Assembly (NCBI GenBank): GCA_951813065.1
Contig: CATOTH010000005.1
Coordinates: 434,001-498,000 of the forward strand
DNA from: an uncultured Bryobacterales bacterium
GTDB lineage: Bacteria > Acidobacteriota > Terriglobia > Bryobacterales > UBA6623
Length of the DNA stretch: 64,000 bases
Direction of reading: 5' to 3'
Made by a program: the position numbers and the translations under genes. The notes under the pieces are model-generated. The model worked only from the letters and a program-made list of their open reading frames with translations, made no database searches and was not told where the DNA came from. Shown here piece by piece: positions 25,265 to 41,431 of the stretch; position 1 is the first letter of the stretch, and each line of letters starts with the position of its first letter.

Positions 25265-28200
25265 ATGATGAGAATCCGAAGGCTCAGCCGTCGACGGGCG
25301 CCGCAGTGGATCCGTTACTTGCTGACAGTCGCGGTCCTCTACTCCGTGGGGCCAGCCTCGATTGCTCAGGGACAGACCTTTCAGGGCGGTCTGCGCGGTA
25401 CCCTCAGGGACGGCAATGGCGGAATTCTCGTCGGAGCGGCAATCACTCTCGAGAACGAGGAAACCGGGGGGGCCCGAAGTACCGTGTCCAACACGGCGGG
25501 CGAGTACTCGTTCGCAAACCTTCAGCCGGGGCAGTACACGCTGAGAGTGGATCTGGCGGGCTTCGCTCCCTTGGTGCAGGAGCGGTTGGGTGTCGGCATC
25601 TCGTCCTGGCTGGTGTTGGACCTAGTGTTGAGGGTCGGAGGCATCGACGAGACCATTACGGTCACGGGGGCAGGTCCGCTGGTGGAGAGCGGGACCGCTT
25701 CGGTTTCGTCAACGATCGACCGCGCGCAGCTGGAATCCCTCCCGTCCCCCGGTCGGAATGTCTTCATCATGGCGGTGACGACTCCCAATGTCGTGCATAC
25801 CGGAAACCCCGTGTGGGTCAAGCAATCGGATCAAACAAATTCTTCGCTGCTGTCGCTTGGAGGCGGCCCCCTCCGTGGCAACAACTACACGCTCGACGGC
25901 GTCTCGATGACCGACATGCGCAACCGTTCGGTGATCATTCCGATTTTCGAGGCGGTCGAAGAAATGAAGGTGCAAACCAACACCTACGATGCGGAAATGG
26001 GCCGCACTGGCGGAGGAGTGTTCAACACGATTCACCGCAGCGGCACCAACCGCTGGGCGGGCAGCGCGCTGTACCAGTTCCGGCCCGGAAAGCTGAACAC
26101 GTTCTGGAGGAAGCTGGGCTACTTCCAGCAGCAGGAGTTCGACTCCGGCGCACTCGACCAGCAAGACATCAGCAACGCTCCGTATAATCTGGCCGGAGGC
26201 TCGTTCGGGGGTCCGATCGTGAGCGACCGGACGTTTTTCTGGCTGGCGGCCGAGGGCTTCTCCGACGATGCGGTCGAGAACACGTCGATCGCGATCCCGA
26301 CACAGGCCGAGACGGCCGGCGACTTCTCCGAGAGCGGGTCGCGGATCTTCGATCCGTTCGACAGAGATGAGAACGGCAACAGGAACTGGTTCCCTGACAA
26401 TCGCATCCCGGGGCACCGGGTGGATCCGGCGGGCGCGGCGCTGGCCGGGCTGCTGGCGGGCCTCGGCCCGGGCGGCCTGCGGTCGACTTCAGGGATCCAG
26501 ACAGTGCAGGCGATCCAGACCACGGGCAACCTCAACCACGCGGTCACTGACAAGTGGCAACTCACCGCGACCTACCTCTACTACACGTCGGAAGAACCCG
26601 GCTTTGGCCACTACCGGGACCTTCTCAATTCCGAGTCCTCGCCAACCTTCGCCCTCAGTGCCTCCGTCCTGGGTCGAGACGTTCATGCCGTGGCGATCAA
26701 CAACACGTTTGTCGTCACGCCAACGTCGGTTCTGAACCTGAGGTACGGCCAGACCTACTTCAACGATTCTCGCGAGAGCTCGGTATATGGTGACCGCGAG
26801 GTCCGCGACCAACTGGGAATCCAGGGAGACTTCCTGGACAAGATTTACGCGCAGGAGGGCTACAAGGGGCAGTTTCCGCTGATTCACATCGCGGAATACG
26901 GTGACGACGGGCACACCCACGGATCAAGCAGCAACAACGACACGCAGTGGCTGTCCCGAGAGGTGAGCGGGACGTTTTCGCAGTTCGTCGGAAACCACAC
27001 CTTGAAGTACGGCGGGCAGTGGCGTCGGCTGGGCCTGAGCACCTTCCATTTCGGAAATGGCTTCGCGTTGCAGTTCGGCAGGAAATTCACGCAGGGCCCG
27101 AACCCGACCAGCCCTGAAGTCGGTTCTGGCAACGCACTGGCCGACCTGCTGGTCGGAGTGCCGGCCGGCGGCACGGCAACGCTGGGCGCGCAGGCAGATC
27201 TTTTCTTGGACTACTTCGGAGGGTTCATCCAGGACGACTGGAGAGCGACTCCGGACCTCGTGCTCAACCTCGGACTGCGCATCGAGCGCGAAACGGGTCT
27301 GAAGGAAGACACGAATGACTTCGCGGTCGGATGGGAGCGAACTCGCCCATTTCCCGTGCAAGCGTCGCTGGCGCCTGAAATCGAAGCGGCGCTACCGGGG
27401 TTCCCGTTGCGGGGCGGACTGATGTACGCGGGCGTTGACGGCAACCCGACCCACCAATGGAACCCACCGCCGATCAAGGTCGGACCCAGGATCGGATTCG
27501 CCTACAGCCTGAGCGGAGGTACCGTTCTGCGGGGGGGATACGCCGTCTTCTGGGCTCCGTACGCGATACCGTCCGGCACGGGAGCTTCGGAAATCGGCAC
27601 CTATGGCTACACCGCGGTCACCAACATCGAGACCAGCGTCGACGGCATCACGCCGCCGGAAGCGTCCGCATCCAATCCCTTCCCGCACGGCATTCTGGGC
27701 CCCATGGGAAACGCCCGTGGGCGCCTCCAGAACGTCGGCGGCGATGTCTACTTCAACGAGCAATTCCGCGACTCCCCCTATATCCAGAAGTGGTCTCTGG
27801 ACCTGCAACGCAACATTGGCAGTGCCTTGGTGGCCAAGGCCGGGTACGTCGGTAGCACCGGTACCAATTTGCCGATCGGGGGCACCCGCAACTCGGTGAT
27901 CAACATCAACCAGTTGCCCGACTCGCACCTTGCGCTCGGGGCCCGGCTGAACGAACCCTACCCGAATCCCTTCCACGGCAACTCGCAGTTCGGACCCTTC
28001 GCCCACGACGAGACCCTTCCGCTCGGGCAGCTCCTGCGACCCTACCCGCACTTCCGCAACGTCTACGCGCGTCACGTGAGCTCCGGCAGGTCGCTCTATC
28101 ACTCGGTACGCCTAGAGCTGGAAAAGCGATTCAGCGATCGCTGGGGCGCTCGGATCAACTACACCTTCACACGACACCTGGACAACATCTACGAGAGCAA

Positions 28201-28819
28201 TACCCTGACGGAGAGCGAAACGGGAACCGCATACAACACCCCGGGTGAGTGCGCGTTCGGGAAATGCCCCGTGCTGGAGCAGGACTACTCGCCTTCGATT
28301 CTCCATGTCCCGCACAGCCTCAACCTCAATCTGATGCACCAATTGCCCGGCAGGGGCAGGCTGATGGGAGGCTGGACGGCCTCGCTGTCATCCTCGGCAC
28401 GCAGCGGCTTTCCGCTCGTGATCACCCAGAACTCGAACCCGCTGAGCGCGTACGGCTTCAGCCACCAGCGCCCCGCCAATGCCGAAGTGTCCGGCGGGAA
28501 CGACCCGGCCGGCAATGTCTCGCACTACGTGACCGCAGGCTCCGTGGTTCCGACCCAAGGCCTCCAGTTGAGCTCCGCTCCCCGAACGACGGCCACGGCC
28601 AGAACCCCGAGACTCGTCAATTGGGATGTCGCCCTCGAGAAGAGCACGGCGATCTCCGAAGGCGCGAATCTCGTGCTTCGATTCGAATTCATCAATATCT
28701 TCAACGGCGTCAACTGGCGCGGGCCGTCCACCGTCTTCGGATCCGGAGACTTCGGGCGAATCGATGGCAACCGGGGCTTTCCGCGAACATTCCAGTTCAT
28801 GACGAGGGTGACGTTCTAG
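25265..28819 (+). CDS. TonB-dependent receptor, Oar-like with carboxypeptidase regulatory domain
   Basis: A 1184-residue outer-membrane protein. After a signal peptide (to about residue 35, IAQGQ), residues about 36-120 form a CarboxypepD_reg-like beta-sandwich (LRGTLRDGNGGILVGAAITLENEETG). A plug-like domain follows (ITVTGAGPLVESGTASVSSTIDRAQLESLPSPGRNV ... LRGNNYTLDGVSMTD) and then a large beta-barrel ending in Phe (FQFMTRVTF), the usual outer-membrane signature. This architecture is strongly expanded in Acidobacteriota, where such proteins are thought to take up oligosaccharides or other large solutes with TonB energy. Paired ATGs at 25265 and 25268 follow GAGG. No SusD partner is present. 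Ligand unknown. Confidence 0.92.
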   Translation: MMRIRRLSRRRAPQWIRYLLTVAVLYSVGPASIAQGQTFQGGLRGTLRDGNGGILVGAAITLENEETGGARSTVSNTAGEYSFANLQPGQYTLRVDLAGFAPLVQERLGVGISSWLVLDLVLRVGGIDETITVTGAGPLVESGTASVSSTIDRAQLESLPSPGRNVFIMAVTTPNVVHTGNPVWVKQSDQTNSSLLSLGGGPLRGNNYTLDGVSMTDMRNRSVIIPIFEAVEEMKVQTNTYDAEMGRTGGGVFNTIHRSGTNRWAGSALYQFRPGKLNTFWRKLGYFQQQEFDSGALDQQDISNAPYNLAGGSFGGPIVSDRTFFWLAAEGFSDDAVENTSIAIPTQAETAGDFSESGSRIFDPFDRDENGNRNWFPDNRIPGHRVDPAGAALAGLLAGLGPGGLRSTSGIQTVQAIQTTGNLNHAVTDKWQLTATYLYYTSEEPGFGHYRDLLNSESSPTFALSASVLGRDVHAVAINNTFVVTPTSVLNLRYGQTYFNDSRESSVYGDREVRDQLGIQGDFLDKIYAQEGYKGQFPLIHIAEYGDDGHTHGSSSNNDTQWLSREVSGTFSQFVGNHTLKYGGQWRRLGLSTFHFGNGFALQFGRKFTQGPNPTSPEVGSGNALADLLVGVPAGGTATLGAQADLFLDYFGGFIQDDWRATPDLVLNLGLRIERETGLKEDTNDFAVGWERTRPFPVQASLAPEIEAALPGFPLRGGLMYAGVDGNPTHQWNPPPIKVGPRIGFAYSLSGGTVLRGGYAVFWAPYAIPSGTGASEIGTYGYTAVTNIETSVDGITPPEASASNPFPHGILGPMGNARGRLQNVGGDVYFNEQFRDSPYIQKWSLDLQRNIGSALVAKAGYVGSTGTNLPIGGTRNSVININQLPDSHLALGARLNEPYPNPFHGNSQFGPFAHDETLPLGQLLRPYPHFRNVYARHVSSGRSLYHSVRLELEKRFSDRWGARINYTFTRHLDNIYESNTLTESETGTAYNTPGECAFGKCPVLEQDYSPSILHVPHSLNLNLMHQLPGRGRLMGGWTASLSSSARSGFPLVITQNSNPLSAYGFSHQRPANAEVSGGNDPAGNVSHYVTAGSVVPTQGLQLSSAPRTTATARTPRLVNWDVALEKSTAISEGANLVLRFEFINIFNGVNWRGPSTVFGSGDFGRIDGNRGFPRTFQFMTRVTF

Positions 28820-29301: not shown

Positions 29302-30006
29302 ATGCTGGAAGCAATAGGACTTACCAAGCTCTACGGCTCGTTCAAAGCGCTCGACTCGCTCGACCTGTCGATCGAACCCGGGCAAGTCTTCTGCTTGCTC
29401 GGAGCGAACGGGGCGGGAAAGACGACAACGATCAATCTCTTTCTCAACTTCATCGAAGCCAGCTCCGGCGAAGCACGCGTCCACGGACTCCAGGTGGCCG
29501 AGAATCCGCTTGAAACCAAGAAGCACCTCGCATATATCCCCGAGCAGGTGATGCTCTACCGCCACCTAACCGGCCTTGAGAATCTGGAATACTTCACCGC
29601 CCTCGCCAGGCACGAGGAGTATTCGCAAGACCAGCTCCGCCGCTTCTTGAACGAGGCCGGAATCTCCGCAGACGCGATTGACCGGCGCGTCTCCACCTAC
29701 AGCAAGGGCATGCGACAGAAGGTCGGCATCGCGATAGCCGTCGCTAAGAGGGCTAAGGCGTTGCTTCTCGACGAGCCCACTTCGGGTCTCGACCCGAAGG
29801 CGTCGAGCGAGTTTTCCGAGCTACTAAAGAGCATGAGCGGCGAAGGCGTGGCCGTGCTGATGGCGACGCACGACCTGTTCCGAGCCAAGGAAACCGGGAC
29901 CCACGTCGGATTCATGAAGCAGGGACGCCTCGTCGCGCGCCTGACCACGGCAGAGATCGGCCACGCCGATCTCGAAGGGCTCTACCTCGAACACATGCAC
30001 GGATAA
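29302..30006 (+). CDS. ABC transporter ATP-binding protein
   Basis: A 234-residue nucleotide-binding subunit. Walker A is GANGAGKTTT, the signature YSKGMRQK replaces LSGGQ in the way usual for ABC-2 exporters, Walker B is ALLLDEPTSGLD and the switch His is in MATHDLFRAK. The D-loop follows Walker B. It begins a three-gene operon: the first permease starts 12 nt after its stop and the second 2 nt after that. The set resembles exporters with paired DUF3526-type permeases, a class seen in Bacteroidota and Acidobacteriota whose cargo is mostly unknown. The start at ATG 29302 has only a weak ribosome binding site (GCAGG). Confidence 0.93.
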   Translation: MLEAIGLTKLYGSFKALDSLDLSIEPGQVFCLLGANGAGKTTTINLFLNFIEASSGEARVHGLQVAENPLETKKHLAYIPEQVMLYRHLTGLENLEYFTALARHEEYSQDQLRRFLNEAGISADAIDRRVSTYSKGMRQKVGIAIAVAKRAKALLLDEPTSGLDPKASSEFSELLKSMSGEGVAVLMATHDLFRAKETGTHVGFMKQGRLVARLTTAEIGHADLEGLYLEHMHG

Positions 30007-30018
30007 GGAGGCGGACTC

Positions 30019-31431
30019 ATGGTGGTCCGAATCGCTCGCAAGGAGCTTCTGGAGATGACGCGCGACGGCCGCTTCCGGGTCGCGGGAGGAGTCGTCGCGT
30101 TGTTGCTGCTCATCGCTCTCGGACTCGGCTGGCACAGACATTCGAACGTGACCGCGGCGCATGAAATCGCTATTGCACAGGAGCGTGAGATCTGGGAATC
30201 CCAAGGAGAAAAGAGTCCCCACTCGGCCGCCCACTACGGCGTCTACGCCTTCAAACCAACAGGACGGCTGGCTTTCTTCGACCCCGGAACGGAAGCCTAT
30301 ACCGGCGTCACCGTCTGGCTAGAAGCCCACAAGCAAAATCAGTTCCTCTACCGTCCGGCGCTTGACGGCAACACTCTGCAGCGCTTCGGTGAGTTGACCG
30401 CAGCGGCCGTACTGCAACTGCTGCTGCCGCTCTTGATCATCCTGCTCGCCTTCTCCGCGTTCGCCGGAGAACGGGAGTCCGGTACGTTGCGGCAGGTTCT
30501 GAGTTTGGGGGTGCGCCGAAGCGATCTCGCCGTTGGGAAGGCGCTCGGCGTCGTCGGGGCCTTAGCCTTGCTCCTGGTACCGGCCGTTATGCTCGGCGCG
30601 GCAGCGCTGACCGCGGCCAGGGCCGATTCTCCGTCGGGAGGGCTCGTACGGACGCTTTTCCTCGCCGGCGCCTACCTGCTCTATCTCGGAGCATTCGTCG
30701 GCGTGACCCTGGCGGTGTCGGTGCGGGCGCGCTCAGCCCGATTCGCTTTGGTCGCCTTGCTCGGGTTCTGGGTCTTCGTTTGCCTGGCCGCCCCGCGCGC
30801 AGCGACGGACTTGGCCAAAGCCTTGTATCCAACGCCGTCTGTCCAGGAGTTCGCCGCCGCTCTGGCCGAAGAGAAGGAAACTGGAATCGGCGGCGTCGAC
30901 TACGACGATTTCCTCGAGGCCCGCAAACAAGAGTTGCTGGCCGAATACGGCGTGGACGACGTCGAGGCGCTGCCAATCAACTACGCCGGTTGGCGCTTCC
31001 AGGTCAGCGAGGAGTACGGCAACCAATTCTTCGACCGCCACTACGCTCGCCTTTGGGATCAGTTCGAGGCGCAGGACGGATTCCGCCAGAAGATCGGCTT
31101 CGCGGCCCCGCTGTTGGCCGTGCGCTCCTTGTCGATGTCGCTCGCCGGCTCCGATTTCGCGCACTTTCGGCGGTTCGCCGAGCAGGCCGAGCAGTATCGT
31201 AGGCGGCTCGTCGCCTTCTTGAACGACGACATGCGCGACCACGCCGGAGCGGGTTTCTCCTACCGCCGGGACCAGGGGCTGTGGAGCAAAGCCCCGGCTT
31301 TCGCCTATGACGCACCGGACCCGGTCTGGGCGGTATCCGGCCAATCGACGGCGCTGGCCGCCCTAGTGTTGTGGCTCGTCCTCTCCGCCGTCTTGGCACG
31401 GTCCGCCGCGGCGCGTTTGGAGGTCTCTTAG
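30019..31431 (+). CDS. ABC-2 permease, DUF3526 type (first)
   Basis: A 470-residue inner-membrane subunit. One N-terminal helix (VAGGVVALLLLIALGLGW) is followed by an approximately 90-residue extracytoplasmic loop, then a core of five or so helices (LLLPLLIILLAFSAF ... GVVGALALLLVPAVMLGA ... LLYLGAFVGVTLAVSV ... LVALLGFWVFVCLAA). A second large soluble segment of about 190 residues (SVQEFAAALAEEKETG ...) precedes the last helix near the C-terminus. The cytoplasmic coupling motif GERESGTLRQVLSLG is typical of ABC-2 permeases. The big periplasmic insert is the feature that marks the DUF3526 group. Stop at 31429-31431; the next gene starts 2 nt later. Confidence 0.85.
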   Translation: MVVRIARKELLEMTRDGRFRVAGGVVALLLLIALGLGWHRHSNVTAAHEIAIAQEREIWESQGEKSPHSAAHYGVYAFKPTGRLAFFDPGTEAYTGVTVWLEAHKQNQFLYRPALDGNTLQRFGELTAAAVLQLLLPLLIILLAFSAFAGERESGTLRQVLSLGVRRSDLAVGKALGVVGALALLLVPAVMLGAAALTAARADSPSGGLVRTLFLAGAYLLYLGAFVGVTLAVSVRARSARFALVALLGFWVFVCLAAPRAATDLAKALYPTPSVQEFAAALAEEKETGIGGVDYDDFLEARKQELLAEYGVDDVEALPINYAGWRFQVSEEYGNQFFDRHYARLWDQFEAQDGFRQKIGFAAPLLAVRSLSMSLAGSDFAHFRRFAEQAEQYRRRLVAFLNDDMRDHAGAGFSYRRDQGLWSKAPAFAYDAPDPVWAVSGQSTALAALVLWLVLSAVLARSAAARLEVS

Positions 31432-31433
31432 CG

Positions 31434-32870
31434 ATGCTCCTCCGCGTGATGCGCAACGAATGGCGCGGCCTGGCCGCGGATCGCACTCTTTGGGCAGTGA
31501 CGATCTTGCTTGCTGTGGTGATGCTCTTCGCTGCCTCGAACGGCGCCCGCTGGTCGGCCCTGCAACAAGAGCGGCATGGCAGGCTCGTAGCCGACCAGAG
31601 CGAGCGCCTCGAAGAGACCCGTGATCAGCTGCTCGAAATCGCCCGCGGCGGCTCGCCCCGAAGTCGCTTCTTGGATCCCCGCAATCCCGCACAAGTCGGC
31701 CAGAGCTTCGCCGCCGGTTACGCCCTGCTGCCACCGGCTCCGCTTGCCCCGCTGTCGGTCGGCCAGAGCGACATCCTGCCAGCCCACTACAAGATCACGC
31801 TGGAGAGCCGTGAGGCGCTGTTCGCGGGTGACGAGCTCGACAACCCGACGAACCTCCTCGCCGGCAGGTTCGACGTCGCCTTCGTCATCGTCTTCCTCTA
31901 TCCGCTCGTGATCCTAGCACTGAGCTACAACCTGCTCTCTGGCGAGAAGGAGGGCGGTACGTTGGCCTTGGCGCTCGCGCAGCCGATCTCGCTCACGCGA
32001 CTGGCGACAGCCAAGATTCTTGGGTGTGGCGTCGTCGTGCTGAGCCTGACGGCAGCACTGACGCTGGCTGCGACCGTCGCTGCCAGCGTCGACCTGGGCG
32101 CACCCGGCGCGTTTTCGTCCCTTGCCGCCTACTTCGGCATCACCGCTGTGTACGGCCTATTCTGGTTCTCGCTGGCCCTGTTGGTCAACGCCTTCGGCCG
32201 AGGCTCGGCGACCAACGCCGTGATCCTCGCCGGAGCCTGGCTCACGCTCGCGCTGATCGTGCCGTCGGCGACGTCGCTGTTCGCCGCCACGCTGTACCCG
32301 GTTCCGTCACGCGTGGAGATGATCCAGTCCGTCCGCGTCGCTGGCCAAGAAGCGTCCGAGCTCGGCAGCCAACTGCTGAGCGCCTACTTCGAAGACCACC
32401 CGGAAATGGCGCCCGAAGGCGAGATCGACCCGCGTGACTATTACTCCCTCAAATTCGTCATGGAGGATGAAATCTCAAGACAGATCGCCCCGCTCACCGA
32501 GCGGTTCGAAGCCCAGATTCGCGGGCAGCAATCCGTCGTCGAGAAATTTCGCTTCCTGTCCCCGGCCATTCTTGCGCAGCAGGCCTTGAACGATCTTTCC
32601 GGAACCGGCTACTCCCGGTTCGACCACTTCCGCAGCGAGGCCGGGCGCTTCGCCGACGAGTGGAAAAGCCATTTCCTGCCGCAGATCTTCCGCAAGACCG
32701 TCGTCACCGCCGAGGCCTTGGGCGAGCTTCCCCGCTTCTCGTACCGGCCTGAAAGACCTAGCGCGATCGCCGAGCGCGTCGGAGGCACCGCCCTGCTGAT
32801 CGCGCTAAGCGCTGTGCTGTTGCTCGGCACGGCCTTGTGGGCATTGCGTCGCTACCCGCTAACAGCCTGA
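31434..32870 (+). CDS. ABC-2 permease, DUF3526 type (second)
   Basis: A 478-residue permease with the same plan as its neighbour: N-terminal helix (LWAVTILLAVVMLFAAS), an extracytoplasmic loop, helices around FVIVFLYPLVILALSYNLLSG, the coupling motif GEKEGGTLALALAQPI, further helices, and a soluble segment (about residues 305-440) before the terminal helix (TALLIALSAVLLLGTALWAL). ATG 31434 is supported by GGAGG 12 nt upstream, inside the end of the first permease gene; the frame is open earlier but lacks a signal. The two permeases probably form a heterodimer served by the ATPase at 29302. Cargo unknown. Confidence 0.85.
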   Translation: MLLRVMRNEWRGLAADRTLWAVTILLAVVMLFAASNGARWSALQQERHGRLVADQSERLEETRDQLLEIARGGSPRSRFLDPRNPAQVGQSFAAGYALLPPAPLAPLSVGQSDILPAHYKITLESREALFAGDELDNPTNLLAGRFDVAFVIVFLYPLVILALSYNLLSGEKEGGTLALALAQPISLTRLATAKILGCGVVVLSLTAALTLAATVAASVDLGAPGAFSSLAAYFGITAVYGLFWFSLALLVNAFGRGSATNAVILAGAWLTLALIVPSATSLFAATLYPVPSRVEMIQSVRVAGQEASELGSQLLSAYFEDHPEMAPEGEIDPRDYYSLKFVMEDEISRQIAPLTERFEAQIRGQQSVVEKFRFLSPAILAQQALNDLSGTGYSRFDHFRSEAGRFADEWKSHFLPQIFRKTVVTAEALGELPRFSYRPERPSAIAERVGGTALLIALSAVLLLGTALWALRRYPLTA

Positions 32871-34580: not shown

Positions 34581-35996
34581 TCACGGGTCGAGTTGCTCCA
34601 CGATCTCGGTCGCGAGATCGGCGTGACCCTGCGCCCTGGCGAGCGCCAGGGCGTTCCGCGCAGAGTTCCGGGCGTCGTCGGCCCGCCCGAGCTGCCGGTA
34701 CACAAGCGCGAGTACGAAAGCGTGCAACGCCGTACCGGAACTCTCGTTGGCCACGGCGGTCTCGAGGTACGGGAGCGCCTCGCGGAACCGGCCGGCATCG
34801 GCGAGTCGCCTCCCGGTGTGGTAGTTCGCCATCGGCTGCGACGGATTGTGCTCCAGGGCCAGACGAAAATGGCGGGAGGCTTCGCCTGCCCGCCCCAGCC
34901 GTTCCAACGTCGTCGCGAGATTCGCGTGGGCGTTGGCGTCCTGGGGATTGACATCGAGCGCCTTGGCGAACGCGTCCGCAGCACCCTGATAGTTCTCGGC
35001 GAAATGGAGCGCCACACCATAGTTGTAGTGGGCTTCCGCGATCGAAGGATTCAGTCCCACAGCGCGGTTGTAATGTTCGGTGGCCAGCCCATGGTTACCG
35101 AGCTCGCCGTAGACCGCGATGAGGTTCACGTGGGCTTGCGCGTAGCCCGGGTCGATTTCCAACGTGGCCTGGTATGCCGAACGCGCACCTTCAAGGTCGC
35201 CCTGGGCGCCAAGGGCGTGACCTTCGTCGAAAGACGCCTGGGCGCTGCTCGCTCGGATGGAGTCCATCGCCTCGATCAAGGGATCCGCGTAGTGCCGGCG
35301 CGCGGTCGCGTCCGCTTGCGAGTACATGGCGAGTTGCGCCGCGGCATCCTCGTCCCGGCCAATCGCGCGGTAGGCATTGGCGAGAGCGTAATGGGCCTCG
35401 CGATAGCCCGGCTCGAGGTCGACTGCCTTCTCGAGATGATCGAGCGCTCCCTGCGGGCTCTTGGACGCAGTCAGCCGCCCCAGCCGGTAGTGCACCGCGG
35501 CGCTCCGCGGAGAGCGCCGGAGCGCCGCCTCCAGGATTTCTTGGGAGCGATCCGCGTCGCCCGACTGCTCGATCGCGTCCGCGAGTCGCAGCGCCGCCGG
35601 AAGGTCATCCGGTCGGAGCGCTAGAGCGGCCCGGAGCGCGTCGTGGGCTTCCTCGGTCTGGCCGAGATCGGTCTGCGTCACACCCAGCAAGTAAACCCAT
35701 TCGAATTCCTGCGAATCCAGGACCCGGCTGCGGTCGAAACACTGAGCCGCCGCTTGGTATTGCCCGTACGCGTACAGTGCGCGCCCCAACGCGCCGACGA
35801 CTGCGGCGTCCACGGGTGCGGCCTTCGCTCGCTCCCAGGCCGATCTGAGTTGCTGCCGCACCGCCGGAGCGACCCCCTCCAATACCGGCTCCTCTAGCGG
35901 GGGAATCCCACGGTCCGAGCAACCGCTTGCCAGTACCGCGCAGACTGCTACCAGCGTTGAGGTCAAGCGACCGGGCTTCGCATTCCGTTCCAACAT
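34581..35996 (-). CDS. TPR-repeat lipoprotein
   Basis: A 471-residue lipoprotein: signal with lipobox ASGC (LVAVCAVLASGCSDRG), then tandem tetratricopeptide repeats covering almost the whole mature protein. The 34-residue spacing and the W/LG-Y-A-P pattern are clear in LGRALYAYGQYQAAAQCFDR, HYRLGRLTASKSPQGALDHL, HVNLIAVYGELGNHGLATEH and HYNYGVALHFAENYQGAADA; about ten repeats can be counted. Such proteins act as protein-interaction scaffolds in the periplasm or on the outer membrane. No enzymatic domain is present and no partner is obvious; the next gene on the strand (TolC) is 122 nt away. Confidence 0.88.
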   Translation of the reverse strand: MLERNAKPGRLTSTLVAVCAVLASGCSDRGIPPLEEPVLEGVAPAVRQQLRSAWERAKAAPVDAAVVGALGRALYAYGQYQAAAQCFDRSRVLDSQEFEWVYLLGVTQTDLGQTEEAHDALRAALALRPDDLPAALRLADAIEQSGDADRSQEILEAALRRSPRSAAVHYRLGRLTASKSPQGALDHLEKAVDLEPGYREAHYALANAYRAIGRDEDAAAQLAMYSQADATARRHYADPLIEAMDSIRASSAQASFDEGHALGAQGDLEGARSAYQATLEIDPGYAQAHVNLIAVYGELGNHGLATEHYNRAVGLNPSIAEAHYNYGVALHFAENYQGAADAFAKALDVNPQDANAHANLATTLERLGRAGEASRHFRLALEHNPSQPMANYHTGRRLADAGRFREALPYLETAVANESSGTALHAFVLALVYRQLGRADDARNSARNALALARAQGHADLATEIVEQLDP

Positions 35997-36117: not shown

Positions 36118-37419
36118 TCAGTCGGTAAACGCCGCCCCCAATCTACCAGACGAGTACGCGAGTGCGAGCCTGGCTTTCGCCAGCCGATACCGGGTTTCGA
36201 CAAACGCTCCCCATGCGGTTGATTCGACCACGCGCGCACGCTCGACCTCGGCCAGCGTGACCAAACCCTCGTCGAACCGTGCCATCAAGACATCAAGACT
36301 CTCCCGGGCATAATCCAATTCCTGCTGAGCGAGCCCGCCCAGCCGCTCGGCTTCGCGAACCGCGACCACGGCCCGCCTTGCTTGCATGTCGATCGACGCT
36401 CTCTTGGCCTCTTGCTGGATCTCGAGCTCGCGCTCCTCGATCCGCGCCCTGGCCACACGCTCCGCCAAGCCCCTCCCGGTGAATAGAGGGACCTGCAACG
36501 CCACGCCGGCCTGCCAGTTGTGCCGCTCGAACCGGCGGAAATAGTCGTCATAGTTGTTGAACCGCGCCAGCATCGCGTACTGGCCCACGATGTCCAGGCT
36601 GGGGTAGCGCGCCGAGCGCGCCTCGCGGGCTTTGTGGCGGGCAGCCCGAATCCGCGCGTCGATCCCGGCCAACTCGGGGTGCACGGGGCTGCTCGGGTGT
36701 ACCGTCGGCCAAAGCGATCGCGGCACTCCTAGGCTGCCGTCCGTGTCGGTGGGCAATGGCTTCAGGCGGACGCCCTCTCCGAGGCCGAGCGTCCAGCGCA
36801 GGTCCGCCTCCAGCAGGTCGAAGCGCTCAACCGATGCTGCGAGACGCTCGGTGGCCCGCGCCCGGTCAAGCCGCACTCGCGCCAAGGCGAGAGGAATCTC
36901 CGACCCCTCCTCGACCCGCGCCACGGTCAGCCCCTCGATGCGCTCGAAGCTTGCCACTTCCGACTCGAGACGCTCGATCTCGCGTGACGCGAGTTCGAAA
37001 TCCAGATACAGGGATCCGGCGCGGTGGGCGGCCTTCTCTGCGGTCGCCGTCGCGGCATGCTCTCCGGATTCGATCAGCGCGCGGGTGCCGTGCGCACGCC
37101 GGGGCCGCTCGAAATCCAGCAACGGCTGGCGCAAGGTGACTTGAGCCACTGAGGGTGTCGCGCCCTGGATGCTCTGTGGAATGCCGGACGTGGCTCCGAG
37201 CCCGGAAGCCGCGCTCACTCGCACGGACCTCTCCGTGCGGATCAGACGCAGATCGCTCTCGGATTTCTCGACATCGAGCCGTGCCAGCTGCACCTCCGGG
37301 TTCTGGGCGTTCGCCAACTGCACGACTTCGCGCAGCCCGATCGGGCGATCGACGGGTCCGTCGGCGGCGATGCCGGCACGAACGGCGATCAACAAGAAGC
37401 AAGCAAGAAACCTATTCAT
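36118..37419 (-). CDS. TolC-family outer membrane channel
   Basis: A 433-residue outer-membrane efflux protein (signal MNRFLACFLLIAVRAGIA). It shows the duplicated alpha-helical coiled pattern of the TolC/OEP family: LREVVQLANAQNPEVQLARL at the first repeat, a second repeat from about 245 (HPELAGIDARIRAARHKARE), and long charged helices rich in Ala, Arg and Glu (ERVARARIEERELEIQQEAK). It is the last gene of a five-gene operon: its ATG at 37419 overlaps the stop of the permease gene by 8 nt. It would provide the outer-membrane duct for the membrane-fusion protein and permease encoded upstream. Confidence 0.9.
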   Translation of the reverse strand: MNRFLACFLLIAVRAGIAADGPVDRPIGLREVVQLANAQNPEVQLARLDVEKSESDLRLIRTERSVRVSAASGLGATSGIPQSIQGATPSVAQVTLRQPLLDFERPRRAHGTRALIESGEHAATATAEKAAHRAGSLYLDFELASREIERLESEVASFERIEGLTVARVEEGSEIPLALARVRLDRARATERLAASVERFDLLEADLRWTLGLGEGVRLKPLPTDTDGSLGVPRSLWPTVHPSSPVHPELAGIDARIRAARHKAREARSARYPSLDIVGQYAMLARFNNYDDYFRRFERHNWQAGVALQVPLFTGRGLAERVARARIEERELEIQQEAKRASIDMQARRAVVAVREAERLGGLAQQELDYARESLDVLMARFDEGLVTLAEVERARVVESTAWGAFVETRYRLAKARLALAYSSGRLGAAFTD

Positions 37420-38632
37420 GGCGAAGGGCCTCCACGGGGTCTAGATTCGAAGCGCGGGTCGCGGGAAGCAGGCCGAAGAACGACCCGGCTACCGCCGCGG
37501 ACAGCCAGGCGAAGGCAGCCCAGCCTGGCGGCACGCGCACCGGCAGCGCAGGCCAGGCCTGGGACGCAGCCCAGGGAACTGCGACCCCAAGCGCCAGGCC
37601 GCAAGTCCCCCCGAGCACGGCTAGCGCAAGGGCCTCAGCAAGAAACTGAAGCCGGATATCGCGGCGGGTGGCGCCAGCGGCCTTCCTGATCCCGATCTCG
37701 CCCGTGCGCTCGGAGACGGAGATCAGCATCGTGTTCATGATGAACACACCGCTGACGACGAGCGTGATCGATGCGACCAGGACCATCGCCAGATTCAGCG
37801 CAAGGAGGATTCTCTCCGCGGCGGCCAGCAGGCCTGAAAGCGTATCCACTCGATAGAGCGAGCCGGGCCGGTGCCGTGACTCCAGGACTTCGCGCACCAG
37901 CACCGCGGCCTCGTCAACCCGGTCCTGCGAGCTGACCGCCACGTATAGAGGGTCCACTCGCTCAACGTCCTGGAAGTACTGCAGCACTGTGGAAGGCACG
38001 AGCACGGAGGACTCCGCCACCTCGGATTGACCGAACGTCTCGACGCTCTCGGAGAAGACCCCGATAACCTGGAACTCCAGGCCGTGGGCCTTAAGGGTCT
38101 GTCCGACCACCCCCGCCGCAGGTCCGTACAGCTTCTCTGCGAGCTGGGGAGTCACCAGGCAGACCTTGGCCCTCGATTCCAGGTCGGTGGCCTCCAGGAA
38201 CCGGCCTTCGTGAACTTTCACGTTCCGCACGAAGCGGTACGCCTCGCTCGATCCGAGGACGCGGATCTGCATTGGCTGGCCGTCGACGAATATCGAGTCC
38301 CAGGAACTCGTCACGCCGGCCACGGCCGAGGCCAGGCTGCCGAGACGCCGTCGGACAGCGTCGACGTCAGCGATGTTGATGTAGTCCGCCTGGGATGCCG
38401 ACACGTTGCCCCCTGCCTCGTAGTAGGCGTAAACCAGGTTGGGTCCGACCCCCCGGATCTGCGCGAGCACGAAGTCGGCTCCGGTCGCGGCTACGGTGGC
38501 GACAAGCGACACCGCGGCGACAGCCGCCGCCATGCTCGACGCGGTCAGGAACGACCTCAGGCGCCGCGCGCGCAGGGCACCGATCGCTGTGCGGACGATT
38601 TCCCCGTACGCCAGAGGGGCCTTGGCGGTCAT
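37412..38632 (-). CDS. MacB/FtsX-type ABC permease without ATPase domain
   Basis: A 406-residue permease with the MacB topology: N-terminal helix (SFLTASSMAAAVAAVSLVATV), a large periplasmic domain (residues about 60-265, MacB_PCD type, with VKVHEGRFLEATDLESRAKVCLVT), then three C-terminal helices with the FtsX motif SERTGEIGIRKAAGATRRDI and the end SNLDPVEALRHE. MacB itself has an N-terminal ATPase; here there is none, and no ATPase gene lies in the operon. ATG 38632 sits in the ATGA overlap with the TPR gene upstream; the frame is open to 38761 but those residues do not belong to the family. It must borrow an ATPase encoded elsewhere. Confidence 0.88.
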   Translation of the reverse strand: MTAKAPLAYGEIVRTAIGALRARRLRSFLTASSMAAAVAAVSLVATVAATGADFVLAQIRGVGPNLVYAYYEAGGNVSASQADYINIADVDAVRRRLGSLASAVAGVTSSWDSIFVDGQPMQIRVLGSSEAYRFVRNVKVHEGRFLEATDLESRAKVCLVTPQLAEKLYGPAAGVVGQTLKAHGLEFQVIGVFSESVETFGQSEVAESSVLVPSTVLQYFQDVERVDPLYVAVSSQDRVDEAAVLVREVLESRHRPGSLYRVDTLSGLLAAAERILLALNLAMVLVASITLVVSGVFIMNTMLISVSERTGEIGIRKAAGATRRDIRLQFLAEALALAVLGGTCGLALGVAVPWAASQAWPALPVRVPPGWAAFAWLSAAVAGSFFGLLPATRASNLDPVEALRHE

Positions 38633-39423
38633 ATCCCTTTCAGCAGCTTGCGCACATGGGACACCGGCTCGGCACTCGGCTTCTGCAACGGGTTCGCCAG
38701 GTAGCGCTCGAGCAGCTGCTTCGCCCACGGATACAAGGACCGGCGCTTCGCGCGGATCCATGTCTGGGCTGCAGCGAGCAATACCGCCGGGTTCGATGGT
38801 TCGGCCGCCAGGGCCTGCTCCAGAAGGGCATCGCTGGCGGCTGTCGAGCCTTGGCGGGCCAAGAACCCCGCATGTCCCAGCAGGTACTCGATTGCGTCGG
38901 GGTCGAGTTCCTCGGCCATGGCGTAGCGCTCGCCGGCACTCTCGGCGTCGCCGGTCTTTTCGAAGTAGTCAGCCCAAGCCAGCAATCCTCTCATCTCGTC
39001 GATGGCCTCAATCCGGCCCGCGAGGGCCCCGGCTTCCTTCCTGCTGCCTCCGACAATTCCCGGTGCGTTGAGATTGAAGTCCTGCAATGCCGTCAGAGTC
39101 TCGACGTTCGACGGATCCAAGGCAACGGACTTCTCGAACATTTCACGGGACTTTCTCGCCATTGGGAGCGCAGTGAGGCGGCGCAGCCCGGTCATCTGCT
39201 CGGCGCGCCGGCCTATCGCTGAACCGAGCCAGAAAGCGGACATCGAGTCCTCCGGATCGGCGCTGACCGCCTTCTCAAGCGCGGTCACCGCCTTGCCGTA
39301 CTCCTCGGCCCAGTAGTGCCGCAGCCCTTCCTCCAAGTGCTCCGCGCCAGGCGTGGAGGCAAGCGCCCACGACAGGCCACCGAGCGCTAGCGCAATCAGT
39401 CCGAGACTACATCCCCGCATCAT
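38629..39423 (-). CDS. TPR-repeat secreted protein of the efflux operon
   Basis: A 264-residue exported protein (signal LGLIALALGGLSWALA) with about five degenerate TPR units: HLEEGLRHYWAEEYGKAVTAL, the EKAVSADPEDSMSAFWLGSA unit, KSREMFEKSVALDPSNVETL, AGERYAMAEELDPDAIEYLL and ASDALLEQALAAEPSNPAVL. It overlaps the membrane-fusion gene by 17 nt and the permease gene by 4 nt, so it is an integral part of the efflux operon, which is unusual. It may tether or sense cargo in the periplasm. No enzyme motif is seen. Confidence 0.82.
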   Translation of the reverse strand: MMRGCSLGLIALALGGLSWALASTPGAEHLEEGLRHYWAEEYGKAVTALEKAVSADPEDSMSAFWLGSAIGRRAEQMTGLRRLTALPMARKSREMFEKSVALDPSNVETLTALQDFNLNAPGIVGGSRKEAGALAGRIEAIDEMRGLLAWADYFEKTGDAESAGERYAMAEELDPDAIEYLLGHAGFLARQGSTAASDALLEQALAAEPSNPAVLLAAAQTWIRAKRRSLYPWAKQLLERYLANPLQKPSAEPVSHVRKLLKGI

Positions 39424-40624
39424 TCACATCCATGCGCACTAGTAAGCGTTGCCCTTCCGAAATGGTCGCACTGCCCGCGAGAAGGACGGTCTCTGACCCG
39501 TCGAGGCCCCTCCTCACTTCAACAAAAACGGGGCCCCTCACGCCCAGCTCGACCGATCTGTGCTTAGCCACTCCGTCCTGCAGGATCCAGGTCGAAGCAT
39601 TTCCTGCAATCTCTCGGACAGCCTCCCGCGGCACGCTAATGGCTCCGGAGACTCGATCGGTCACGACTCTGACTCCAACGGCCAGGTTCGGGAGCAACGA
39701 TCCATCCGGGTTGGGTGCCGAGCACAACACCTCGCCAACCCGTCGAGTGCCAAACTCCACGATCTCGGTTGCAAGCCGGTCGACTTCGCAACCCCACTCC
39801 CTTCCCGGATAGGCATCAGCCGTGAGGCGAGCGGTGGTCCCGAGTGCAATCCGTCCCAAGTCAGGCTCGTCGAGAAAAATCCGGGCGCGGACAGTGCCAA
39901 GATTCCCTACCTGGGCCACGAGATCCCCTCTGGCGACGAAATCACCCTCGCGTACGGGCAACGAAAACAGAGTACCCTTGCGAGGAGCGCGAATCAAGAG
40001 GCTCGAGATGGCCTGGTCGGCTTCGGCGAGGGCCGCCTCGGCGTGGCTGACGGTGGCCAGGAGCTCGCGCTCTCGGGCGGCCTGGACCGGCGCCTCCAGC
40101 TGGGCGCTAACGGCCGCGATCCCAACCTCCAGCTCTTTCTGCTTCCGGCTGGCCTGGTCGAGCTCGGAACGAGCCGCCGCTCCTCGAGCCACGAGTCGAT
40201 CGAGACGGGCGCGATCCTCGAGGACGGACTCTCTCGCAGCTTCGAGCTTGTTGCGTTCGCCTTCCAGGGCGGCGGCGGCCGGTGGGGCCAGGCCGTCCTT
40301 GTACGCGTCGACCCGGGCGCGGGCGGCCTGGACCTGCGCCCACGCTTTTTGGCGGGCGTTCGACTGCCCCTCGTCGGCAAGTCGCAGCAGGAGCTTGCCC
40401 GTCTCAACCGTATCCCCGCTTTGGACGTAGAGGCGGCTCACGCGGCCCGACGCGGCGGCGTGCACCGGCACTTGGCGAGCGGCTTCAATCCGGCCATTCG
40501 TCGTCAGGGCATCCTCGATATCACGCCGCGCCGGCTTGATGCCCACGATCTCCTCCGAAGGGCCCGCACAGGACAGCCCCGTCACCAGCAGAAACGGGCA
40601 CAACGCGATCGCGGCCTTCGACAT
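39407..40624 (-). CDS. HlyD/MacA-type periplasmic membrane-fusion lipoprotein
   Basis: A 405-residue adaptor. The lipoprotein signal ends at LSCAGPS. The split lipoyl domain appears as VHAAASGRVSRLYVQSGDTVETGKLLLRLAD and, after a long alpha-helical hairpin (about residues 85-195, rich in Ala, Arg and Glu), as APRKGTLFSLPVREGDFVARGDLVAQ. A beta-barrel domain (ARIFLDEPDLGRIALGTTARLT) and membrane-proximal domain follow. It bridges inner-membrane permease and TolC. It is second in the operon, starting 9 nt after the stop of the upstream gene at 40634 and ending inside the TPR gene. Confidence 0.9.
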   Translation of the reverse strand: MSKAAIALCPFLLVTGLSCAGPSEEIVGIKPARRDIEDALTTNGRIEAARQVPVHAAASGRVSRLYVQSGDTVETGKLLLRLADEGQSNARQKAWAQVQAARARVDAYKDGLAPPAAAALEGERNKLEAARESVLEDRARLDRLVARGAAARSELDQASRKQKELEVGIAAVSAQLEAPVQAARERELLATVSHAEAALAEADQAISSLLIRAPRKGTLFSLPVREGDFVARGDLVAQVGNLGTVRARIFLDEPDLGRIALGTTARLTADAYPGREWGCEVDRLATEIVEFGTRRVGEVLCSAPNPDGSLLPNLAVGVRVVTDRVSGAISVPREAVREIAGNASTWILQDGVAKHRSVELGVRGPVFVEVRRGLDGSETVLLAGSATISEGQRLLVRMDVNDAGM

Positions 40625-40633
40625 GCGGTTCGG

Positions 40634-41431
40634 TCAGGGGGCGGCGTCGGGGCGGTGGGAGAAGTCCCAAACGCGAAGGTCGGTCTCGCCCGGATTGAAA
40701 TCCAGAATCGCGTACTCGCCGGCCGGCAAGGGTTCGACGGGCCAGACCTTGTAGACGAGCGGAGCAAGCTGCTGGCGGAAGACTTCAACCTCGTCCTGCT
40801 CCTCGAATTGCTCGTCCGCCACGGATACCGTCATGATCTGCTGGACGACCCTCCGGTTCTTTCCCCTCTCGGGCACGATGCGTGCAATCCCGAACCTGGA
40901 GAAGCTGTCGAGCCGTAGGTAAAAGATGGGCTTCGGGTCTGTCGTGACAATCTTGGCCGTGAGCCCCTCGATCGAGAGCGTGCGCTTTCCCGGTATCACT
41001 GGCACGGGCGAAATGATGTTGAAGAATATGCGCTTCGTGCTCTTGCCGAGTTCCCAGAACGCCTGCTCCACGGGCACAGGTTCCTTCCCCTTCAGGTAGT
41101 ACACGCCGTCTTCCAGCGGAACCGAGTGCAGCTCGGTGCGCGCACGCCGTTCGGCGACGCGCTCACGACGGGTTTCCTCTTCCCGGACAGCTGCCGCCGA
41201 CTGGACGCGGCGGTTGTGCTCGTTGGTGCGTGCCAGGTCGACGATCTGGAGCGGCACCTCCTCCCACTGATTGCGGTCAAGGCTGAAGTACCGCACTCGC
41301 TCCTCGCCGACCTCGAACTCGCGGACATTCATCTGGGTGCCATCCGTGAGGAACAGCGCCGCTCGCTGCGCCAGGGCCAATGAGGCGCAGGCAAGCAAAG
41401 CCGCTGCGGCGTATGAGACTCGCTTCCACAT
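40634..41431 (-). CDS. Secreted protein of unknown function heading the efflux operon
   Basis: A 265-residue exported protein. ATG 41431 gives a clean signal peptide (WKRVSYAAAALLACASLALA); the frame is open to a TTG at 41455. The mature protein starts with a short SH3-like or SHD-like strand pattern (ALFLTDGTQMNVREFEVGEERVRYFS), has a strongly charged helix (EEETRRERVAERRARTELHS), and a C-terminal beta-rich domain (KRIFFNIISPVPVIPG ... YAILDFNPGETDLRVWDFS). I do not recognise a named family, although similar proteins with an N-terminal 'translate to residues' domain are common in Acidobacteriota. Its position 9 nt before the membrane-fusion gene ties it to the efflux system. Confidence 0.75.
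   Translation of the reverse strand: MWKRVSYAAAALLACASLALAQRAALFLTDGTQMNVREFEVGEERVRYFSLDRNQWEEVPLQIVDLARTNEHNRRVQSAAAVREEETRRERVAERRARTELHSVPLEDGVYYLKGKEPVPVEQAFWELGKSTKRIFFNIISPVPVIPGKRTLSIEGLTAKIVTTDPKPIFYLRLDSFSRFGIARIVPERGKNRRVVQQIMTVSVADEQFEEQDEVEVFRQQLAPLVYKVWPVEPLPAGEYAILDFNPGETDLRVWDFSHRPDAAP

Follow-up and report, generated by a model that had tools for sequence, protein, structure and literature searches.

We analyzed a stretch of 64,000 nucleotides from an uncultured Bryobacterales bacterium (assembly GCA_951813065.1, contig CATOTH010000005.1, positions 434,001 to 498,000; hereafter the window), in which five minus-strand genes at 36118-41431 encode a secreted protein (G1), a periplasmic adaptor of the membrane fusion protein type (MFP), a tetratricopeptide repeat protein (TPR), a MacB-class permease (PERM), and a TolC-type outer-membrane channel (TolC). 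These genes represent a real, conserved MacB-type exporter cluster without an ATPase gene. The cluster probably specifies a trans-envelope exporter similar to MacAB-TolC, a type VII ATP-binding cassette (ABC) system, whose ATPase is encoded elsewhere; the likeliest candidate is the gene at C2:153765-154523, which probably also serves a second permease without an ATPase, PERM'. The genome is a draft assembly of 5.59 Mb in 11 contigs with a completeness of 95.6%. Hereafter, G followed by three digits denotes a genome (the present one is G000), L a locus, f a family (f3 being the Bryobacteraceae type), and g a genus, and C2, C5, C6, C7, and C9 are contigs of the present genome.

Conservation of the cluster without an ATPase gene

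Among 200 genomes of the order, 183 contained PERM (E ≤ 1e-60), as did 39 of 247 genomes of a phylum sample (1e-65); it was nearly always present in a single copy. A search of plasmid records gave 61 records, every one with less than 60% identity. PERM loci were retrieved from 63 genomes across Acidobacteriota, one per genome (13 via G1, plus 30 and 20); some of the fetched contigs end close to the PERM cluster. No ABC ATPase gene was found inside the cluster in any of the 63 genomes. The same ATPase-less string was present in 12 other f1 and f2 genomes reached via G1, including the single-contig G008, and the cluster was also without an ATPase in 27 f3 loci and 20 loci of other families. An earlier interpretation of the window, made from its letters alone (the sequence-only reading), would have been overturned by relatives whose operons keep an ATPase gene that was merely lost or misassembled here. 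Although the draft state of the assembly gives such a local loss some room, the ATPase-less clusters of the relatives refute it, and we regard it as extremely improbable.

In seven loci, an ABC ATPase was located outside the cluster, within the retrieved flank. By reading, those of L042 and L153 belong to ABC-2 systems and that of L147 is ABC-F-like; the one in L111 follows an aldo-keto reductase gene and is encoded on the other strand, and those of L047, L116, and L127 were left unclassified.

The gene order of the operon is kept in relatives, which indicates that the arrangement is not due to chance. The order MFP-TPR-PERM-TolC was observed in f1 and f2 with the exceptions of G003 and G005 (TPR missing), G013 (TolC not found), and G007. 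The same order was found in two f30 genomes and one f52 genome, and MFP-PERM without TPR in four other f30 genomes and in f68 and f27. In f41, TPR is divergent and adjoins MFP. Of the 27 f3 loci, 20 have TPR next to PERM and 7 have TolC immediately after PERM; none has an adaptor beside PERM. In the 9 f4 loci, PERM was accompanied by neither MFP nor TPR; it stood alone in 8, and a divergent TolC-type gene lies next to PERM in L154. The description of TPR as built into the exporter therefore holds for 20 of the 27 f3 loci and for other families, but the gene is missing in many clusters; TPR is frequent yet dispensable to the cluster. With respect to individual loci, an apparent short TPR relic with stops lies between MFP and PERM at about 5004-5183 of L034 (G003), and about 8 kb of other genes separate TPR from PERM in L131 (G007).

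Class of PERM and conservation of its docking segments

PERM matched MacB_PCD (9.4e-27) and FtsX (5.2e-21) in Pfam and gave no ABC_tran match there, and the MacB model aligned only from position 256 of 648, in agreement with the sequence-only reading of a permease devoid of the MacB ATPase domain. PERM has the MacB_PCD periplasmic domain and the FtsX-type transmembrane (TM) domains of a canonical MacB, with an adaptor and a TolC-type partner in the operon, and lacks the fused N-terminal ATPase domain. It also possesses the conserved coupling helix of a split type VII ABC permease, on which a separate ATPase would dock. PERM was placed in the MacB clade of a phylogenetic tree (98/96), and its orthologs formed one group (100/99). 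The top Protein Data Bank (PDB) match of an AlphaFold2 (AF2) model of PERM (14 sequences, mean pLDDT 84.5) was the Streptococcus pneumoniae transporter 5xu1, and the best listed TM-score was obtained with the MacB of MacAB-TolC (5nik_J, TMq 0.80).

The acidobacterial duplicated orphan permeases (ADOPs, TIGR03434) are permeases of the MacB/FtsX type that occur in Acidobacteriota and have no ATPase next to them. PERM differs from them in being a single unit of 406 aa, compared with about 800 aa, and scored 98.2 bits against a cut-off of 622.3; the ADOPs of the same genome mostly have a more degenerate coupling helix. PERM was also far from the LolC/E-type permeases (46.6 bits against 362.45). 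Both Acidobacteria and the term "duplicated orphan permease" occur in PMC11573002.

The column entropies of 62 PERM sequences were compared within PERM only. The 12 best-conserved windows of 15 residues were all located in residues 291-322, which cover the terminal part of TM2 together with the major coupling helix. The mean entropy was 0.71 bit for the major coupling helix and 0.82 bit for the C-terminal segment, and 1.15-2.12 bit for the other regions, including 1.75 bit for the periplasmic domain. According to the excerpt of PMC5985334, the major and minor coupling segments of MacB contact the ATPase. The segment SVSERTGEIGIRKAAGA of PERM matches SVTERTREIGIRMAVGA of Escherichia coli MacB; the coupling helix has another form in LolE, YbbP, and two permeases of the same genome that have an ATPase neighbor.

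These results make it unlikely that the exporter works without ATP, because the docking segments are better conserved than any other part of PERM. The sequence-only reading had left two options, a shared ATPase encoded elsewhere or a system that works without ATP hydrolysis. The latter, a passive or otherwise energized conduit, would agree with the lack of an ATPase gene in the 63 fetched clusters, but it is at odds with the conservation of both docking segments and with the lack of a proton-driven transporter among the five genes, for which Pfam and NCBIfam gave no RND transporter; we consider it very improbable. The former is the option that we favor, also in view of the orphan MacB-class ATPase described below.

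A stand-alone MacB-class ATPase in the same genome

The search for an orphan LolD/MacB-like ATPase that the sequence-only reading had proposed yielded a candidate. The genome gave 48 PF00005 matches, from which ten ATPases were picked as LolD/MacB-like by a motif scan; four of them adjoin an FtsX-type permease, and the rest do not or are located among ADOPs. The gene at C2:153765-154523 resembled MacB most, by a narrow margin in identity. Its best NCBIfam match was MacB, with 260.6 bits over the ATPase part, which is below the full-length cut-off, and E. coli MacB was its sister in a small tree (80/75). The gene is preceded by an adaptor-like gene (314 aa) and a UbiD-like gene, and no permease was found among its neighboring genes. 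The C2 gene is thus, as judged from its sequence, a stand-alone MacB-class ATPase. Its ortholog was present in at least 26 of 28 genomes among the matches listed; those of G011 (74% complete) and G020 (64%) were not among them.

We examined chosen, non-random sets of loci with the lone ATPase, 18 from Bryobacterales and 20 from across the phylum. In the 18 Bryobacterales loci, an adaptor was located directly upstream in 14, and a MacB permease was in the same string in none. The four loci without the adaptor belong to G012, G015, G016, and G075, which are genomes without PERM. Among the 14 adaptor-bearing loci, PERM (E ≤ 1e-60) was present in 11 genomes, fragments were found in G030 and G102, and none was recognizable in G034. 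The joint absences of the adaptor and PERM represent few independent events, perhaps two or three. In f3, the adaptor is located with the ATPase, and 170 of the 200 genomes of the order contained the ATPase-linked adaptor.

In the phylum set, 16 of the 20 loci had the adaptor and the ATPase without a permease, including L281 with a TolC-like gene upstream, and the ATPase of L276 and L277 had no adaptor. In the other two loci, which come from distant families, the adaptor and the ATPase are followed in line by MacB-type permeases, four in L271 (f23) and two in L282 (f41). These permeases have SVTER..EIG.RKA.GA-like helices close to that of PERM; they form a separate group in the tree and are not PERM orthologs. 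The arrangement in L271 and L282 provides gene-neighbor evidence that this type of ATPase drives MacB-type permeases. L190 also has a related ATPase (56%), with a TolC-like gene and a MacB-type permease as neighbors.

A second ATPase-less cluster and other orphan parts

A second cluster, located at C7:46185-52480 (L105), contains two adaptors, the permease PERM' (417 aa), and a TolC-type channel in the order MFP-MFP-PERM'-TolC, and no ATPase was found in it. PERM' is 94-95% identical within the genus; a match at 1e-60 was present in 26 of 29 genomes searched, with at least 60% identity in 24. PERM' is also present in the four f1 genomes without PERM, and sharing of the ATPase with PERM' would explain why these genomes keep it.

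A single LolC/E-like permease (L106, C6:457288-458520) follows an rpoC-like gene and is located beside aspartokinase-like genes; together with LolD-like ATPases on other contigs, it is perhaps another split pair. The ATPases of L078 and L079 are 95% identical, one being located between ADOP permeases and the other with an adaptor only.

Proposed mechanism and comparison with known systems

What we infer concerns the choice of the C2 gene as the ATPase used, its physical pairing with PERM, its sharing, and the direction and substrate of transport. PERM would form a dimer in the inner membrane, with its coupling helices as the docking site for an ATPase dimer provided in trans. When ATP binds, the stalk helices would zip together and the periplasmic domains would close, as in the mechanotransmission described for MacB, and the closure would push a periplasmic substrate via the MFP channel and the TolC-type duct. 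TPR would act as an accessory periplasmic factor, perhaps for the substrate or for assembly. The C2 ATPase would probably also serve at least one further ATPase-less permease cluster, that of PERM'.

Such an exporter would resemble MacAB-TolC in the MacB-class periplasmic and TM domains, the form of the coupling helix, the adaptor, and the TolC-type channel, and would differ from it in that the ATPase domain is neither fused nor encoded in the operon and in the additional TPR gene. YknXYZ and the S. pneumoniae MacA-MacB-like systems (PDB 5xu1) are Gram-positive, have no TolC, and have their ATPase gene in the same operon. The permease and the ATPase can be separate chains in this family (excerpt of PMC5985334). 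As far as the excerpts seen describe them, one ATPase serves several permeases in trans in the case of MsmK, MceG, and FhuC, but these are importers or lipid uptake systems and not type VII exporters. Our literature searches found nothing joining "orphan permease" with MacB and ATPase, and those on Acidobacteria, MacB, permease, and genome gave, by title, none on such a split system.

Evaluation of the proposed ATPase and of the alternatives

Several observations weigh against the pairing of PERM with the C2 ATPase. The C2-linked adaptor is short, with weak HlyD matches. The identity of E. coli MacB to the C2 ATPase (47%) hardly exceeds that to a paired ATPase on C9 (46%), and the ATPase tree is weak. 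The comparison of entropies had no control set of ATPase-fused MacB of equal size. The C2-type ATPase was found in 222 of 247 phylum genomes (E ≤ 1e-75; paralogs possibly included), and its co-occurrence with PERM (38 of 39) was not significant (Fisher p = 0.14); the co-occurrence is uninformative because the ATPase is near universal. The ATPase is retained in G012, G015, G016, G017, and G075, which have no PERM, and it can therefore be at best a shared ATPase; G075 also has no PERM', so that sharing does not explain the retention there. G294 has the full MFP-TPR-PERM-TolC cluster and no ATPase match at 1e-75. In f3, the absences of PERM and of the ATPase-linked adaptor were uncorrelated (both lacking in 1 of 180 genomes against 0.87 expected), and in G021 PERM is present and the ATPase-linked adaptor was not found at 1e-45. 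Finally, TolC is directly behind PERM in only 7 of the 27 f3 loci and in the same orientation in none of the 9 f4 loci; this scarcity means that a tripartite pump is not assured everywhere, and the f3 count slightly lowers our confidence in the exporter reading and raises that in a function other than efflux.

An ATP-driven exporter could alternatively use another orphan ATPase in trans: a LolD-like one (C2:561520-562200 or C5:240634-241332), a YbbA-like one (C2:961021-961725), or an ADOP-linked one (C7:242k, C6:102k). All have a type VII-like signature, and they either have no single FtsX permease in their string or are located among ADOP permeases. However, the tree, although weak, places them closest to LolD, to YbbA, or to one another, and not to MacB; the YbbA-like gene adjoins tesA, as in E. 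coli, and the LolC/E-like permease on C6 is available for a LolD-like ATPase. We consider such a partner unlikely. Somewhat more doubtful still is the view that the cluster encodes a machine for envelope biogenesis or for lipid or lipoprotein handling built on a MacB-like engine and not an efflux pump. The occurrence of PERM at near one copy per genome throughout the order, unlike an accessory drug pump, agrees with this view, as do the scarcity of TolC and the lack of an adaptor beside PERM in f3, the solitary PERMs of f4 with the divergent TolC-type gene of L154, and the fact that MacB-like engines do other jobs (excerpt of PMC5985334). On the other hand, the strings of f1, f2, f30, f52, and other families include an adaptor and frequently TolC, and the adaptor and channel of f3 and f4 may be encoded elsewhere.

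Distribution of G1 and features of the locus

G1 belongs to a conserved uncharacterized family found in 96 of 100 relatives, and no Pfam or NCBIfam family exceeded its cut-off. The AF2 model (mean pLDDT 86.9) consists of an N-terminal hydrophobic helix, a small beta domain, a long helix, and a C-terminal beta domain. Because it had no PDB match at E ≤ 0.001, the best being Ig-like beta sandwiches from 5.8e-3 with TMq of about 0.2, we claim no function for G1. Of the 40 loci fetched around G1, 26 had no exporter. In 14 of the 18 f1 and f2 loci, the adaptor follows G1; the other four are from f1 genomes without PERM. The adaptor is next to G1 in none of the 22 f3 loci. Since G1 is kept where the exporter was lost, it is not an obligatory part, and the suggestion that this first gene helps to define a distinct type of exporter is unsupported as stated; a loose functional link is possible. 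No protein group occurred in more than 13 of 55 named loci around G1. Four named f3 loci contain a LolD-like ATPase (52-53% to that of C5) at a distance of about 3-9 kb from G1, which was provisionally taken as unrelated. In two further f3 genomes, G1 is divergent and adjoins TPR-PERM (G080, L112) or is about 6 kb away (G055, L111). A Bryobacterales-type G1 locus is also carried by CALQCC020000015.1 (L223), which is titled Bordetella parapertussis and is probably mislabeled.

The features of the locus are summarized in Table 1. The spacings in gene order, calculated from the open reading frame (ORF) coordinates, are 9, -17, -4, and -8 nt, which confirms the five overlapping or closely spaced ORFs on one strand that had been described. 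PERM starts at the ATG at 38632 and not at the longer ORF start at 38761, and its start codon and the stop codon of TPR overlap by 4 nt (ATGA). The assignment of MFP as an adaptor was borne out by HlyD_D23 (4.9e-23, Pfam) and by RND_mfp (151 bits, NCBIfam cut-off 94.9). Its description as a lipoprotein is no more than plausible: members of the genus repeatedly have a Cys near residue 19, and the lipobox is non-canonical.

Table 1. Features of the PERM locus (positions in the window).
Feature	Position	Strand	Description
G1	40634..41431	-	ATG at 41431; secreted protein, function unassigned; no family over cut-off
MFP	39407..40624	-	periplasmic adaptor, HlyD/RND_mfp type; 9 nt gap after G1
TPR	38629..39423	-	exported TPR protein, TPR families; 17 nt overlap with MFP
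PERM	37412..38632	-	MacB-class permease with periplasmic domain, without nucleotide-binding domain; 406 aa
Major coupling helix region of PERM (MNTMLISVSERTGEIGIRKAAG)	37673..37738	-	low column entropy, 62 sequences
PERM C-terminal segment, minor coupling helix position	37415..37453	-	low entropy; role according to the excerpt of PMC5985334
TolC-type outer-membrane channel	36118..37419	-	OEP 1.7e-36; 8 nt overlap with PERM
TPR2, second TPR protein	34581..35996	-	TPR families; directly downstream of tolC

Whether TPR2 is part of the operon is uncertain. TPR2 was found downstream of tolC in all 11 loci of genus g1 that have tolC, at full length in 9 and shortened to about 240 aa in G007 and G002, and was not found in L038 (g5).

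The statement that no ATP-binding gene is present applies to the operon alone; the window contains one ABC ATPase at 29302-30006, about 6.1 kb beyond tolC. Its best match was DrrA-like, and two ABC-2/DUF3526 permeases come next. It was rejected as the partner of PERM because it has its own ABC-2 permeases, and it is not MacB-class. The ABC-2 type system as a whole occupies 29302-32870 on the plus strand, and a large gene at 25265-28819, read from the sequence as TonB-receptor-like, precedes it.

Implications for Acidobacteriota

In this phylum, several physically separate MacB-type permeases without an ATPase (PERM and PERM', perhaps along with others), each having partners of its own, may be driven by a single common motor, a stand-alone MacB-class ATPase that is mostly accompanied by an adaptor. 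They would form a modular family of exporters in which the pumps are interchangeable and the motor is shared. We propose this tentatively, with a confidence somewhat short of even. Sharing of an ATPase is known for importers; a shared motor for tripartite MacB-type exporters, if true, would lead to re-annotation of orphan permeases, which are numerous in Acidobacteriota, and one knock-out could silence several exporters at once. The shared motor also makes it testable why Acidobacteriota keep permeases apart from their ATPases.

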